From Campylobacter magnus (lineage in GTDB: Bacteria; Campylobacterota; Campylobacteria; Campylobacterales; Campylobacteraceae): a stretch of 64,000 nucleotides of DNA. The DNA lies in contig NZ_JAQSLK010000002.1 of NCBI RefSeq assembly GCF_028649595.1, forward strand, positions 1 through 64,000. The letters are read 5' to 3'. How positions within the stretch are numbered: the stretch's first letter is position 1; each line of letters opens with the position of its first letter. Shown here one piece after another: positions 17,285-51,141 of the stretch. The notes under the pieces are model-generated. The model saw only the letters and a list, made by a program, of their open reading frames with translations. It was not told the origin of the DNA and made no database searches. A program made the position numbers and the translations under genes.

Positions 17285-18463
17285 ATGCCAGATTTTAACG
17301 AAATATCAAGCAAAATGCACGAAAAAGCAGGCTATAAAGATCCACTAGCCTTTGGTATAGCAAGAGTGTTAAAAAATATGAAAGGCGAGAGCATAAAAGT
17401 AGATTTTGCTGTGGTAAACTACAAAAACTCATTTGCCTCAGCAGCTGTTATCTTGCACGCTTTAGAAAAAAACGGCGCAAAACTAGATTTTAACTCACCA
17501 GAGGCTGTTTATGAGCTTCATGGTGGCGTGCTGGGTGATGCTTTAGAGCCTTTTAGCTCACTTTTTGGCGAGCTAGATAAACACGCAAATGTAAAAGCTC
17601 TAAAATGCGCTAAAAACGCTGCTAAAGTTGATTACACTCTTGACTACTCACATAGCTTTGAGGCTGTTTTTCTCTATGGTGACGCTAAGCCAGCAAGCGT
17701 GGAGAGCGTGTATTTAAAGCTATATTTACTTTCAAAAAACTTTGTAAAGCCTCGTGAAATTTGCCTTGATGGTGCCTTTGGGATACTACCAAATCTAGCG
17801 TGGGACGAAAGCGGAGAGCCTTATGAGCTTGAGTGGCTAAGAGAGCATGAAATAGAGCTAAAAATGGAGGGCAAATATCCAAATATCGCTTTTATAGACA
17901 AATTCCCTCGCATGCTAAGCCACATCATCCCAAGTGATAACGCTACTCGCGTGCTAGATAGCGCAAAAGTCCGCCTAGGCGCACACCTAGCACCTGGCAC
18001 TGTGGTCATGCCAGGCGCTAGCTACATAAACTTCAATGCTGGCACGCTTGGTTCAGTCATGGTAGAAGGTCGTATCTCAAGCTCAGTTAGAGTGGGAGCC
18101 GGCAGCGATGTAGGCGGTGGTGCTAGCATTTTAGGCGTGCTAAGTGGCACAAACGGCAATCCTATTAGCGTAGGCGAAAAATGCCTTCTTGGCGCAAATA
18201 GCACAACAGGCGTGCCACTAGGCGATGGCTGCATCGTGGATGCTGGGCTTGCGATTTTAGAGGGCACAAAGGTCTTTATCTCAGCTGATAATAGAAAAAA
18301 ACTAGCACAAATCAATAAAGATTTCAGCTTTGATAAAGAAATCTATAAAGCAAGAGAACTAAGCGGACTAAATGGTTTACATTTTAGACAAGATAGTAGG
18401 AGTGGTCAAATCACAGCAGCGCTTAGTACAAGAGCGATTAAGTTAAACGAAAGTTTACACTAA
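17285..18463 (+). CDS. dapD: 2,3,4,5-tetrahydropyridine-2,6-dicarboxylate N-succinyltransferase
   Basis: DapD succinylates tetrahydrodipicolinate in the lysine and meso-diaminopimelate pathway, which also feeds peptidoglycan. At 392 residues it matches the long epsilonproteobacterial type. A unique N-terminal half is followed by a left-handed beta-helix of hexapeptide repeats from about residue 230 (VRLGAHLAPGTVVMPGASYI, then VGAGSDVGGGASILGVLSG). The start has an AAAGGGAAC site. It stands alone; a hairpin repeat element begins 7 bp after its stop. Confidence 0.95.
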   Translation: MPDFNEISSKMHEKAGYKDPLAFGIARVLKNMKGESIKVDFAVVNYKNSFASAAVILHALEKNGAKLDFNSPEAVYELHGGVLGDALEPFSSLFGELDKHANVKALKCAKNAAKVDYTLDYSHSFEAVFLYGDAKPASVESVYLKLYLLSKNFVKPREICLDGAFGILPNLAWDESGEPYELEWLREHEIELKMEGKYPNIAFIDKFPRMLSHIIPSDNATRVLDSAKVRLGAHLAPGTVVMPGASYINFNAGTLGSVMVEGRISSSVRVGAGSDVGGGASILGVLSGTNGNPISVGEKCLLGANSTTGVPLGDGCIVDAGLAILEGTKVFISADNRKKLAQINKDFSFDKEIYKARELSGLNGLHFRQDSRSGQITAALSTRAIKLNESLH

Positions 18464-18470
18464 AGCGTTT

Positions 18471-18600
18471 GGCAATTCGTCTTGCGGCACTATTGCGATG
18501 AAAAGCCAGCCACGCGCGCCTTGGGATGAACTATCTGTTCTATCCCTGCGGTGCGCTTGGCTGCCTTTTTTCACACTAGCACCACAATACTAGAATTGCC
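18471..18600 (-). repeat. Long-hairpin element, copy 1 (130 bp)
   Basis: The ends are GGCAATTC (18471) and GAATTGCC (18593-18600). Inside, AAAAGCCAGCCACGCGC (18501-18517) pairs with GCGCTTGGCTGCCTTTT (18553-18569) with two mismatches. The core GGGATGAAC-TATCT-GTTCTATCCC (18523-18546) is a further hairpin. A related copy lies at 49484-49606. Most imperfect pairs in the outer stem become G-U pairs if the minus strand is transcribed, which favours that strand. Function is unknown. Confidence 0.75.
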
Positions 18601-18785
18601 GTTTTTTAAGGAATTCTAGAATTCTAGAAGGAATTCTAGATTTTTATAGAGAATTCTAGAATTCTCTCTAGAATTCTATAAGGAATTCTAGATTTTTCTA
18701 AGGAATTCTAGAATTTTATAAAGAATTCTAAAATTTTTATAGAGAATTCTAGAATTTTCTAAGGAATTCTAGAATTTTATTTTAT
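18601..18785. repeat. Array of GAATTCTAGAATTC-type palindromes
   Basis: Around ten consecutive copies of AAGGAATTCTAGAATTTT-like units, spaced irregularly by about 15-25 bp, fill the gap between the long-hairpin element and the SRP RNA gene. Confidence 0.9.
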
Positions 18786-19952: not shown

Positions 19953-20039
19953 ATGCTTGGATATATTTTAATGGCAATATTTTTGGGTGGCATGATATTT
20001 ATTGCTTATAGCGCATTTAACGCTGTTAAAACAAACTAA
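19953..20039 (+). CDS. Small single-span membrane protein (28 aa)
   Basis: MLGYILMAIFLGGMIFIAYS begins a 28-codon frame with a good ribosome site (CAAGGGAATAAA). It encodes one transmembrane helix and a short polar tail ending KTN. It lies 46 bp after pgpA and could be in the same transcript. Size and composition resemble small inner-membrane subunits or regulators, but no family is recognised. Confidence 0.5.
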   Translation: MLGYILMAIFLGGMIFIAYSAFNAVKTN

Positions 20040-20129
20040 AAGAAATTTTGGATTTTTCTAAGGAATTCTAGAATTTACTAAACCTTGTAGCAGTAGTAAA
20101 ATAAAAGCCTTGGCAAGTCCTGCTAGCAA

Positions 20130-20205
20130 TGGTGGCCCCGAATGGGTTCGAACCATCGACCACCACCATGTCAAGGTGGTGCTCTACCAGCTGAGCTACG
20201 GGACC
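20130..20205 (-). tRNA. tRNA-Val (anticodon GAC)
   Basis: The minus strand folds with acceptor GGTCCCG/CGGGGCC and anticodon stem CCACC/GGTGG around TTGACAT (anticodon GAC). The T arm is ATGGTTCGAACCCAT and CCA is encoded. Confidence 0.96.
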
Positions 20206-31724: not shown

Positions 31725-32136
31725 TTTTTTTTGCTTTGCATCCGCTGGTTGCTTCGCATCCGGTGGTTGCTTGCTTTTTGGGGGTTAGGGGGTATTTTTT
31801 ACCTAGGAATTCTAGAATTCCTAAAACTAGAATTCCTAGCAAAATTCTAGAATTCTTAAATCTAGAATTCTTAATTTTAGAATTCCTAGTAAAATTCTAG
31901 AATTCTTAAATCTAGAATTCCTAACAAAATTCTAGAATTTCTAGTAAAATTCTAGAATTCCTAAAACTAGAATTCCTAAATATAGAATTCCTAAATATAG
32001 AATTCTTAAATATAGAATTCTTAAATATAGAATTCCTAAATATAGAATTCTTAATTCTAGAATTCCTAACAAAATTCTAGAATTCCTAGCAAAATTCTAG
32101 AATTCCTTAATCTAGAATTCCATAGCGAATTCTAGA
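31725..32136. repeat. Dense composite repeat array downstream of mrdA
   Basis: The array begins with GCTTTGCATCCGCTGGTTGC and TTGGGGGTTAGGGGGTATTT modules. It continues with over twenty GAATTC half-sites in about 330 bp. Inside it, a 15-bp unit (CTAAATATAGAATTC or TTAAATATAGAATTC) is repeated about five times in tandem at 31976-32050. Confidence 0.92.
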
Positions 32137-45014: not shown

Positions 45015-46194
45015 GGAATTCTAGAATTCCTAGGAAAATTTCTTAGGGAATTCTAAAATTCCTAGGCTGCGAACTAGAATTCCCAAAGAAAATTCCTAAA
45101 CTAGAATTCCTATTTTGCTACGCAACCGTGCTTTGCGTTTGCCTTTTTGCTTCGCATCCGCTCTTTGCTAGGTTTTGGGGGTTAAGGGGTATTTTGCCTA
45201 GGAATTCTAGAATTCCCTAATTTAGAATTCCTTAAACTAAAATTCCTTAATCTAGAATTCCCAAAGAGAATTCATAAAGAGAATTCCTAATCTAGAATTC
45301 TATTTTTGCTTAGCATCCGCTGGTTGGAGTATTTTACATAGGAATTCTAGATTTTTAGCGATTTTATTCCTAGGAATTCTAGAATTCCTTAAACTAGAAT
45401 TCTTAATCTAAAATTCCTTAATCTAGAATTCCCAAAGAGAATTCCTATTTTTGCTACGCATCCGCTATTTGCTAAGTTTTTTGGGGTTAGGGGTATTTTG
45501 CCTAGGAATTCTAGAATTTTTAAAGATAATTCCTTAATCTAAAATTCCCTGATCTAGAATTCCTATTTTTGCTTCGCATCCACTCTTTGCTAAGTTTTTG
45601 GGGTTAGGGGTATTTTTGTAATTTGTAATTTATATTTTATAAGATTATAAATATTAGCCTAGAATTCTCAATCTAGAATTCCTAAAGAGAATTCCTAATC
45701 TAAAATTCCTTAATCTAGAATTCCCTAATAAAAATACCCCTTTTTCTAAGGAATTCTAGATTTTTTTCTAAGGAATTCTAGAATTTAGCTTGGGAATTTT
45801 AGAATTCTTTTTTAGCTCGCTTTTGGGTTAGATAAATCTAGCCCAGCTCGCTAGTTTCGTGTCTGGCAAGAGAAAGGGGCAAGCCACTTTAAACCCCTTT
45901 TTTCTAAGGAATTCTAGAATTTAGCCTAGGAATTATAGAATTCCCAAAGAGAATTCCTAAACTAGAATTCCATAAGATAAAAAATACCCCCTAACCCCCA
46001 AAAGCCTAGGAATTCTAGAATTCCTAACTAGAAAAAGCTTAATATTTATTATCCTTTTAAAAATAAAGGCAAAATGAGTGAAAACTTTATTAGAAATTTA
46101 GCTTAAATTAAGCAGTAAATTATTTTAAGAAATTCAATCTAGAATTCCTAAAACTCTAAGACTTTGTCCTAAAAGCTTAAAGTGAAATTCTAGA
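45015..46194. repeat. 1.2-kb composite repeat region without genes
   Basis: This is the largest gene-free stretch. It holds dozens of GAATTC half-sites. Three near-tandem copies of a composite are also present (near 45150-45230, 45450-45525 and 45570-45620): TTTGCTTCGCATCCGCT, then TTTGCTAAGTTTTTGGGG, then TTAGGGGTATTTT and an AGGAATTCTAGAATT palindrome. A shortened copy is near 45310 and an inverted copy near 45985-46020. A non-repeat patch (45840-45895) contains GCCAGCTCGCTAG-like DNA (as CCCAGCTCGCTAG) without a coding frame. Confidence 0.92.
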
Positions 46195-48722: not shown

Positions 48723-49466
48723 TTACATCAAAAGTCCGCCATTTACTTTTAGCGTCTCGCCTGTGATATAGCTAGCATGATCGCTTAGCAAAAACGCCAC
48801 CGCATCAGCAATTTCGCTAGCCTTGCCCATGCGGCCTAGCGGGATATTTTTTGCGTAGTAGTCCTTTACTTCATCGCTTAATTTCTCAGTCATTGCTGTT
48901 TCAATAAAGCCAGGAGTTACGCAGTTATAGCGCACACTGCGGCTTGCGCCTTCTTTGGCAAAGCTTTTGCTCATAGCTATCATGCCACCTTTGCTAGCTG
49001 AGTAGTTTACTTGCCCAGCATTGCCCATTTCGCCCACGATTGAGGCGATATTTACCACCGCACCAAAGCGTTTTTTACTCATTACTTTTAGAGCCTCTCT
49101 GCAGCCTAAAAACGCACTTTTTAAATTTGCGTCAATCACGCTTGTAAAATCACTCTCGCTCATGCGAAGTGCAAGTTTATCATTTGTAATTCCAGCGTTA
49201 TTTACAAGATAGCTTAGCTCGCCATCGCTTTCAGTTATTAGCTTTATCGCCTCGGCCCAGCCGCTCTCGTCACTTGCATCAAACTTAATTAGAGCTGCTA
49301 CTGCTCCAATGCTTTCAATCTTTGCTTTTAGCTCATCAGCAGGTGCTGGGTCGCTGCGGTAGTTTATCCATACTTTTAAACCCATGCCAGCTAAATTCTC
49401 AGCAATACTTGCGCCTATTCCACGACTTGCGCCGGTTATTAGGACATTTTTTCCACTAAATTTCAT
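48723..49466 (-). CDS. fabG: 3-oxoacyl-[acyl-carrier-protein] reductase
   Basis: FabG reduces 3-oxoacyl-ACP with NADPH. From the ATG at 49466 the protein has 247 residues, with the cofactor loop TGASRGIG near 11-18, NNAG near 89 and the catalytic YSASKGG. The start is fixed by the AAAGGAGAATAAAT site. The longer frame to 49514 would read into a hairpin repeat and is rejected. That hairpin begins 18 bp upstream of the start codon and would be in the mRNA leader. Confidence 0.96.
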   Translation of the reverse strand: MKFSGKNVLITGASRGIGASIAENLAGMGLKVWINYRSDPAPADELKAKIESIGAVAALIKFDASDESGWAEAIKLITESDGELSYLVNNAGITNDKLALRMSESDFTSVIDANLKSAFLGCREALKVMSKKRFGAVVNIASIVGEMGNAGQVNYSASKGGMIAMSKSFAKEGASRSVRYNCVTPGFIETAMTEKLSDEVKDYYAKNIPLGRMGKASEIADAVAFLLSDHASYITGETLKVNGGLLM

Positions 49467-49483
49467 ATTTATTCTCCTTTGTA

Positions 49484-49606
49484 GCAATTCGTCTTGCACA
49501 CCTATTGCGACCAAACTTCGCTCGCAATTGCTTGATGAACTATTTGTTCTATCTACGCTCGTGCTCGCTCAGTTTTGCCACACTAGGTGCACAATATTAG
49601 AATTGC
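49484..49606 (-). repeat. Long-hairpin element, copy 2 (123 bp), in the fabG leader
   Basis: GCAATTC (49484-49490) and GAATTGC (49600-49606) are the ends, and the core GATGAAC-TATTT-GTTCTATC (49534-49553) is almost identical to copy 1. The outer stem follows the same plan with different bases, some changed on both sides. The inner stem is weaker than in copy 1. On the minus strand it lies just upstream of the fabG ribosome binding site. Confidence 0.75.
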
Positions 49607-49662
49607 TTTTAAATTTTTTATTTTAGCATAATTTAGGGAATTCTAGAATTCCCTAGCAAAGC

Positions 49663-51141
49663 CTAGAAAATCGGCTTTTCCATTTCTTTTGGAATTTCAA
49701 GCTCCATTAGTTTTAGCACGCTAGGAGCGACATTTGCTAGTCCTGCATCGCTTGCCATTTCCAATCTTCTACCATCGCTAGTAAGCACAAAGCAAAATAC
49801 ATCAAAAGTGGTGTGATTTGTAAGCATTTCGCCACTAGCTGAGCGCAGTGCCTCGCAGTTGCCATGGTCGCTGATTTGTATGTATTCGTAGCCATTTGCG
49901 CTAGCTTTTTGTATAATTTTGCCAAGACAGCTATCTACAGCCTCGACTGCCTTTGTGGCTGCATCTATATCGCCTGTGTGTCCTACCATATCGCCATTTG
50001 CGAAATTCACTACTATAAAATCAAAGCCCTCATCAAGCCCTTTTAGCACCGCATCGCAAACTTCATAAGCACTCATTTCTGGTTTTTCATCATAGGTTGC
50101 TACCTTTGGGCTTGGGATTAGCACTCTGGCTTCATTTTCTACGCACTCTTCTTTGCCACCATTAAAGAAAAAAGTCACATGAGCGTATTTCTCAGTCTCA
50201 GCGGTGTGTAGCTGGCGTAGGTTATTTGCTGCTATTACTTGCGCTAGAGTGTTATTTATCTCATCAGGGGCAAACATCACAGGGAAAGTAAACTTATCAT
50301 CATACTTAGTAATTGTGATTAGATTAGGGCAAATATTTTTGCGCTCAAACTCGCTAAAATCAGCCACGCTAAGAGCCGAGCAAAGCTCACGAGCCCTGTC
50401 ATTTCTAAAATTTACAAAAACTATGCCATCATCAGCTTTGATGCCACCAAAGTCATAAAAGCTAGCAGGCTTTATAAACTCATCAAAAATCTCATTTTCA
50501 TAGCTTTTTTTCATATATTCATTAGGGCTAAGCTCGCTTAAATTAGAATTCTCAGCAATCACTCTATAAGCACTCTCTACTCTATCCCAGCGCTTATCTC
50601 TATCCATAGCATAAAAGCGTCCGCAAATGCTAGCTATTTCATACTTCTTGCTTAAATGCTCTATAAAGCCTGCCCCAGTAGTAGGCACCACATCACGACC
50701 ATCTGTGATAGCGTGGATTATGGGCTTTGCCCCAGCAGATTTTACTATATCTATAAGAGCGTCAAAGTGGCGCAAATGCGAGTGTACGCCACCATCGCTA
50801 TAAAGCCCTATTATATGAATGCGCTGGCATTTTGCTAGAAGCTCTTTTAGGGCAGGGTTACTAGCTAGCTTGCCATTTTCAATTGCTTTATCAATCTTAA
50901 CTAGGCTTTGATATAGTATGCGTCCTGAGCCTATTGTCATGTGACCAACCTCGCTATTTCCCATTTGCCCACTAGGCAAGCCCACAGCTAGACCGCTGGT
51001 TTTAAGATAGCAGAAATTTGCCTTTTTAAAAAGCATATCATAAGTAGGCTTTTTTGCCCTCATAAAAGCATTGCTAGCGTCATTTTTATCAGGATTTGCG
51101 CCGATTCCATCAGTTATTACTAAAATACATTTTTTACTCAT
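49663..51141 (-). CDS. gpmI: 2,3-bisphosphoglycerate-independent phosphoglycerate mutase
   Basis: GpmI interconverts 3- and 2-phosphoglycerate in glycolysis and gluconeogenesis using manganese. The 492-residue alkaline-phosphatase-superfamily protein has the nucleophile serine in MGNSEVGHMTIGSGR (about residue 62), HAITDGRDVVP near 140, and metal ligands in GHTGDIDAATKAVE and ISDHGNCE. It is upstream of fabG on the same strand, separated by the long-hairpin element and a palindrome. Confidence 0.96.
   Translation of the reverse strand: MSKKCILVITDGIGANPDKNDASNAFMRAKKPTYDMLFKKANFCYLKTSGLAVGLPSGQMGNSEVGHMTIGSGRILYQSLVKIDKAIENGKLASNPALKELLAKCQRIHIIGLYSDGGVHSHLRHFDALIDIVKSAGAKPIIHAITDGRDVVPTTGAGFIEHLSKKYEIASICGRFYAMDRDKRWDRVESAYRVIAENSNLSELSPNEYMKKSYENEIFDEFIKPASFYDFGGIKADDGIVFVNFRNDRARELCSALSVADFSEFERKNICPNLITITKYDDKFTFPVMFAPDEINNTLAQVIAANNLRQLHTAETEKYAHVTFFFNGGKEECVENEARVLIPSPKVATYDEKPEMSAYEVCDAVLKGLDEGFDFIVVNFANGDMVGHTGDIDAATKAVEAVDSCLGKIIQKASANGYEYIQISDHGNCEALRSASGEMLTNHTTFDVFCFVLTSDGRRLEMASDAGLANVAPSVLKLMELEIPKEMEKPIF

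Follow-up and report, generated by a model that had tools for sequence, protein, structure and literature searches.

Introduction

ERIC, REP and other dispersed palindromic repeats were first recognized decades ago, but the way in which most of them move, and the form (DNA or RNA) in which they act, are open questions. The intergenic elements ERIC (or IRU, 127 bp), RUP, Correia/NEMIS and YPAL are imperfect palindromes of ~100–170 bp that occur in dozens of copies and encode no protein; their orientation matters, and ERIC is co-transcribed (PMC2229807, PMC1590033). REP sequences and REPINs, associated with TnpA-REP (RAYT), are extragenic hairpins with conserved stem irregularities that are recognized as single strands (PMC8266576). 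The attC sites of integrons, for example the Vibrio cholerae repeats, are long imperfect hairpins of which the folded bottom strand is recognized via its structure and its extrahelical bases (PMC3053210).

The element described here, found in a 64,000-nucleotide stretch of Campylobacter magnus DNA (the window), resembles ERIC, RUP and Correia in size, intergenic dispersal, copy number and terminal inverted repeats. Unlike these elements, it has strong covariation in the stem, one favoured strand and an apex that is nearly invariant within a genome, no TA ends were seen and no target duplication was recognized, its inner modules are swapped and its 3′ end is located at gene boundaries. At ~125 nt it is about four times longer than the REP/REPIN palindrome, which is of 20–40 bp and has a GTAG tetranucleotide, and none of 22 genomes had the Y1 transposase of the REP/REPIN system at a score over the cut-off. 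As in attC, one folded strand is favoured (judged from energies and G-U pairs only), usually the one opposite to the adjoining gene; unlike attC, the copies are dispersed beside housekeeping genes with no cassettes or arrays, and no integrase was over the cut-off. The level of covariation and the use of G-U pairs are like those of curated Rfam RNA families, yet there was no match in 4227 of these families.

The family is an unusually informative case of a repeat, combining strong covariation, a clear choice of strand, swaps between close genomes and the absence of the usual enzymes where they were tested for. It bears directly on Campylobacter genomics because dozens of housekeeping genes have one of these repeats, unlisted in Rfam, at the 3′ end or in the 5′ leader.

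Results

The two copies in the window

The original prediction was of an unrecognized long-hairpin family with two copies 31 kb apart, and the features of these copies are given in Table 1. Each is a long, imperfect palindrome; the two have the same termini, GCAATTC/GAATTGC, and share the 20-nt hairpin GATGAACTAT[C/T]TGTTCTATC at the apex, in agreement with the predicted shared termini and nearly invariant core. The minus-strand RNA of copy 1 had a folding energy of −72.7 kcal/mol relative to a mean of −36.9 for shuffled sequences (z −10.4), and that of copy 2 a value of −52.8 kcal/mol (z −7.0), whereas the plus-strand folds were weaker (−62.3 for copy 1 and −36.1 for copy 2). The inner stem of copy 1 had been described as 17 bp with two mismatches, which is close: it consists of runs of 6, 6 and 7 pairs with two mismatches between them. 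In a promoter scan that relied on consensus matching alone, promoter-like matches were present 5′ of copy 1 on its minus strand.

Table 1. Coordinates of the element copies in the window and of the features next to them.
Feature	Position	Strand	Basis
Copy 1, type I, whole long hairpin	18471..18600	(−), fold-favoured strand	Fold, models R1 and R2
Copy 1 terminal stem, 3′ half (partner 18593–18600)	18471..18478	(−)	Fold; helix 1 of alignment
Copy 1 terminal stem, 5′ half (minus strand GGCAATTC)	18593..18600	(−)	Fold; helix 1
Copy 1 apical hairpin GAT-A-GAAC-AGATA-GTTC-ATC (3 bp, bulged A, 4 bp, 5-nt loop)	18525..18544	(−)	Helix 6, 99% paired
Copy 2, type I, whole long hairpin	49483..49607	(−)	Fold, model R2
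Copy 2 apical hairpin GATAGAACAAATAGTTCATC	49534..49553	(−)	Fold
DapD-like tetrahydrodipicolinate N-succinyltransferase gene; stop codon 7 nt from 3′ end of copy 1	17285..18463	(+)	Matches DapD models below equivalog cut-offs
fabG (3-oxoacyl-ACP reductase); Shine-Dalgarno/ATG 16 nt from 3′ end of copy 2	48723..49466	(−)	
Tract of GAATTCTAGAATTC palindromes next to 5′ end of copy 1, outside the hairpin; accompanies many copies	18611..18777	(.)	

Size and distribution of the family

More than a dozen full-length copies were found by nucleotide search in the genome that contains the window (G000; 1.71 Mb in 19 contigs). A covariance model made from 21 of its copies (R1) recovered 39 copies at E<1e-5, those 21 among them, and so the predicted number of two was far too low. 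A second model (R2) was made from seven copies of the congener G013 and one copy of C. concisus, and contained no copy of the window's type; it recovered both window copies on the minus strand, with E-values of 6e-6 and 0.002 (90 kb searched). E-values of both models came from a short calibration, and genes were called as the longest ORF.

The same-species genome G007 had a copy number similar to that of G000. When R1 was run across 16 genomes of the genus, weaker matches were obtained in one further genome, G013, the copies of which have quite different outer arms and the same apex and length as those of G000. With R2 there were 75 matches in G013, 17 in G012 and 0 in several congeners; over the taxonomic family, matches were present in 54 of 150 genomes and 4 of 12 genera, with at least 20 in several genomes. 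In an order-wide sample of 299 genomes searched with stricter filters, the matches were confined to this same family.

No match to the element was found in plasmids. Within a phage collection, R2 located the element only in two Helicobacter cinaedi prophage records, with three copies in each that have the same outer module and different apex sequences. Among viral contigs, 73 stretches matched the apex pattern, none of which was the element by R2 at the thresholds used, and there was no enrichment; a second pattern, taken from the type II arm, led to two contigs with elements. Matches of a 20-mer to Raoultella and Morganella were judged to be due to chance, the hairpin being absent.

A search of Rfam 15 (4227 families) at gathering and permissive thresholds gave no match for the window element or for seven element loci, which bears out the prediction of an unrecognized family, and no description was found in a literature search that covered few subscription journals. 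The ~100–130-nt repeats at gene ends in Campylobacter and some Helicobacter are a family undescribed in Rfam and in the literature searched. Elsewhere in the window, at 20025–20168 (+) and 20133–20205 (−), a match to the Rfam antisense RNA HPnc0260, barely over threshold, overlaps a tRNA on the opposite strand.

Architecture and covariation

Read on the folding strand, the element is one long hairpin in which a terminal stem and conserved mismatches are combined with an inner stem that varies freely and with a small hairpin at the apex. Along the folding strand of type I copies come GGCAATTCTAGTATCGTGGTGCTAGTGTG, GGGATAGAACNNNNNGTTCATC and CGCAATAGTGCTGCGAGACGAATTGCC, with a variable inner stem on either side of GGGATAGAACNNNNNGTTCATC. 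The terminal stem GGC...GCC forms the terminal inverted repeats; in the apex, a single bulged base separates helices of 3 and 4 bp, and the latter carries a 5-nt loop. The apex sequence of the main class is nearly invariant within one genome and varies between classes, which include GATAGAAC..GTTCATC, GATAAGGC..GCCTATC, GGCTAGAC..GTCTGCC and, in H. cinaedi, GACTAGCC..GGCTGTC; further copies have other apices. The terminal sequences also vary by type while the architecture is kept, and architecture is more widely conserved than sequence. A similar long hairpin with a second apex class, GAGACGCAC..GTGCGTC, was seen at five loci of G000 (L138, L139, L142, L146 and L148) and in other genera (for example, L195).

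The original prediction was that some stem positions differ between copies on both arms in a matched way. In an alignment of 21 copies evaluated by RNAalifold and pair counting, 41 pairs were found, with 94.5% of cells paired (34–43% when the alignment was slid), and 31 of the 41 pairs were altered on both sides. The covariation score was 0.563, in contrast to 0.189 for shuffled alignments (0 of 500 reached the observed value) and 0.08–0.14 for slid ones. Related sequences can beat such shuffles without having a structure, which gives weight to the sliding control and to the second model, built independently. The further copies clearly covary, and the matched changes are real for some stem positions of the window pair, with exceptions.

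The minus strand (in the orientation of the window) folded better than the plus strand for 38 of 39 copies in G000 and for 33 of 34 other copies, a set that takes in a few copies from G000 or its species. Among 851 minus-strand pair cells there were 106 G-U and 8 A-C, and so the prediction that plus-strand mismatches become G-U pairs on the minus strand was both right and general. This strand bias was equally strong at sense (5′-leader) and antisense sites, and it is therefore a property of the element and not of the host mRNA. These results point to selection on the minus strand for folding. The original interpretation as a folded RNA is borne out as regards the family, the covariation and the strand preference, but not as regards RNA as the molecule: selection could also act on folded single-stranded DNA.

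Placement beside genes

On its folding strand, the element adjoins a stop codon or a Shine-Dalgarno sequence with the 3′ end. For 35 of 41 copies in G000, this end lay on the stop side of a gene encoded on the opposite strand. In a set of 79 distinct copies with such a gene, 13 of them representing one orthologous site, the median distance was 6 nt within a search range of 80 nt. In the genomes G138 and G106, 12 of 34 copies were located directly before a Shine-Dalgarno sequence and start codon on the sense strand, as read by eye, a simple ORF caller being in error there. Several copies are followed by a T-rich flank.

Judged by reading the sequences, the adjoining genes are unrelated and mostly of housekeeping type, as exemplified by the DapD-like gene and fabG of the window, and they differ between species except within one group. 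No replichore bias was obvious by eye in two closed genomes, an observation that carries no weight as evidence.

Swaps and turnover between two genomes of one species

The flanks of the copies were ~2–4% divergent between G000 and G007, and most sites were occupied in both genomes. Because most sites are common to the two strains, movement to new sites appears to be slow. In contrast to this stability of position, about 16 of 37 orthologous copies had been replaced, defined by thresholds of our own setting as at least 15 substitutions or more than 12 missing columns. In the clearest swaps (L001/L061, L002/L067 and L011/L051) the outer arms retain site-specific variants and the inner module comes from another copy. 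For L001/L061 and L011/L051 the identity was 0.94 in the outer part and 0.62–0.70 in the inner part, the best paralogue of which had an identity of 0.95–0.96. At L012/L163, half of a type Ib copy was overwritten by a type I copy.

Unswapped copies had changed by ~3.8%, compared to 2.7% in the flanks, and their paired sites by ~3.0% compared to 5.8% of unpaired sites, or about half, these rates being approximate in that 2 of 24 rows are paralogous matches.

A search for empty sites in G007 yielded no clean one, but an element replaced by another repeat-rich sequence. This locus (L241, G007:C2 ~50863–51111) has a different repeat-rich, hairpin-forming sequence where G000 has the element L034, and it appears that several repeat families turn over in the intergenic regions of the species. 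An insertion of ~21 nt, ACCCAGCGGGTTGCGCAGCAA, was also observed near the junction of the inner and outer parts in L161, L021 and L024; at L007/L161 it is present in one strain only.

Search for mobilizing enzymes and target marks

The transposase families covered were Y1 and IS1595. No Y1 (HUH)/RAYT transposase was over the cut-off in the 22 genomes, element-rich ones included, whereas control genomes were positive. No integron integrase was over the cut-off; weak matches below it occurred in all 14 controls and in almost all of the genomes, whether rich in elements or not. A reverse transcriptase was found in 1 of 22 genomes, which was not G000, and IS1595-type transposases were absent from G000, G007, G012 and G013. 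The original prediction had named a match to transposase ends as evidence for a non-transcribed MITE; none was found, though the repeat may still be a non-coding DNA element. No TA termini were seen at the ends of the elements. In the test for a target duplication, the best similarity of the flanks was 0.47 relative to a shuffled mean of 0.41, a value reached by 4 of 200 shuffles, and no duplication was clear.

Discussion

The reading that we prefer, to which we give not quite an even chance, is that these repeats propagate, or are exchanged, in the form of one folded strand, either RNA or single-stranded DNA, that is recognized by a structure-specific protein. The protein would recognize the minus strand in its folded state and use it as the means by which the element is copied or exchanged from site to site. 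Such a mechanism would explain why pairing and one-strand G-U are kept while the stem sequence changes completely, and also the swapped inner modules and the range of 0 to 75 matches among related genomes. The swaps could be the work of ectopic homologous recombination in the course of natural transformation. The swapping of inner modules and the sporadic copy number are less like an ordinary RNA gene than like a repeat that propagates or exchanges. Against single-strand propagation we count that no mobilizing enzyme, no recognized target duplication and no clean empty site were found, and that most sites are common to the two strains; the constraint on unswapped copies in place (3.0% in paired and 5.8% in unpaired sites) also counts against propagation and fits a function at the site. 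A fuller version, which is possible and to which we give distinctly less credence, is that the elements are a new bacterial repeat class, common to the Campylobacteraceae and Helicobacteraceae, that propagates and exchanges modules as a folded single strand. The enzyme that recognizes this strand would be neither a RAYT nor an integron integrase nor a reverse transcriptase, and the elements would be placed precisely at stop codons or ribosome-binding sites.

The strongest rival is a set of functional RNAs with recombination among them. Transcription of each copy would start in the A+T-rich 5′ flank and give a minus-strand transcript that acts as a small RNA or, before a Shine-Dalgarno sequence, as a 5′ leader, and a protein is predicted to be bound via the apex and mismatches. 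Strand-specific covariation, the bulged A, G-A mismatches and the many G-U pairs are as in structured RNAs, and the 12 of 34 copies directly upstream of a sense-strand Shine-Dalgarno sequence in G138 and G106, the promoter-like matches 5′ of copy 1 and the mild constraint in place agree with it. We nevertheless regard it as unlikely, given that the strand is antisense to a gene 3′ end at most G000 sites (35 of 41), that the adjoining genes are unrelated and vary by species, that copy number ranges from 0 to 75 and that the consensus-match scan established no promoter motif common to all copies. It is more improbable still that the elements are ordinary MITE or ERIC-like sequences for which the hairpin and the bias in strand are incidental, and that a DDE transposase recognizes their GGC...GCC termini and moves them in double-stranded form. 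They resemble ERIC, RUP and Correia in size, in their terminal inverted repeats, in intergenic dispersal and in copy number (PMC2229807), but DDE mobility leaves the inner-stem covariation and the one-strand G-U bias unexplained, the terminal sequences vary by type while the architecture is kept, TA ends were not seen, no target duplication was recognized, and transposases of the IS1595 type, the sole DDE family covered, are absent from the four genomes searched.

The tight spacing after stop codons, with a median of 6 nt over 79 copies, and the T-rich flank after several copies would suit a plus-strand hairpin past the stop codon that terminates the upstream gene's mRNA or stabilizes it. However, the mRNA strand was the poorer-folding one in all 34 of 34 stop-side copies of G000, and many copies elsewhere precede a Shine-Dalgarno sequence, which makes such a role very improbable. 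The least probable reading, by a little, is a mutational artefact in which template switching during replication keeps the arms of the palindrome matched, with no structural selection. Template switching can yield matched changes in the two arms, and the swaps reveal active recombination, but copying from arm to arm gives no reason for G-U pairs on one strand (106 compared to 8), nor does it explain an apex that is nearly invariant within a genome or mismatches that are fixed in position.

Repeats flanking the elements

The hexamer GAATTC occurs 159 times in the window relative to ~18 expected, and is dense at 18611–18777, 31807–32127 and 45016–46138; GAATTCTAGAATTC occurs 19 times relative to ~0.001 expected. 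Many elements of G013, G106 and G138 have TTCAAATTTGAA beside them in place of GAATTCTAGAATTC. Both repeats contain RAATTY, the CtsM methylation site tied to DNA uptake in C. jejuni, and may possibly be uptake-signal repeats. At the G138 and G106 loci L207–L240, a further repeat, TTTTCAAGATGCGGGTCTCGGCGAGT, is located ~80–250 nt 5′ of the elements, with the repeated unit extended upstream; it is sometimes accompanied by an inverted partner, with other repeats in between.
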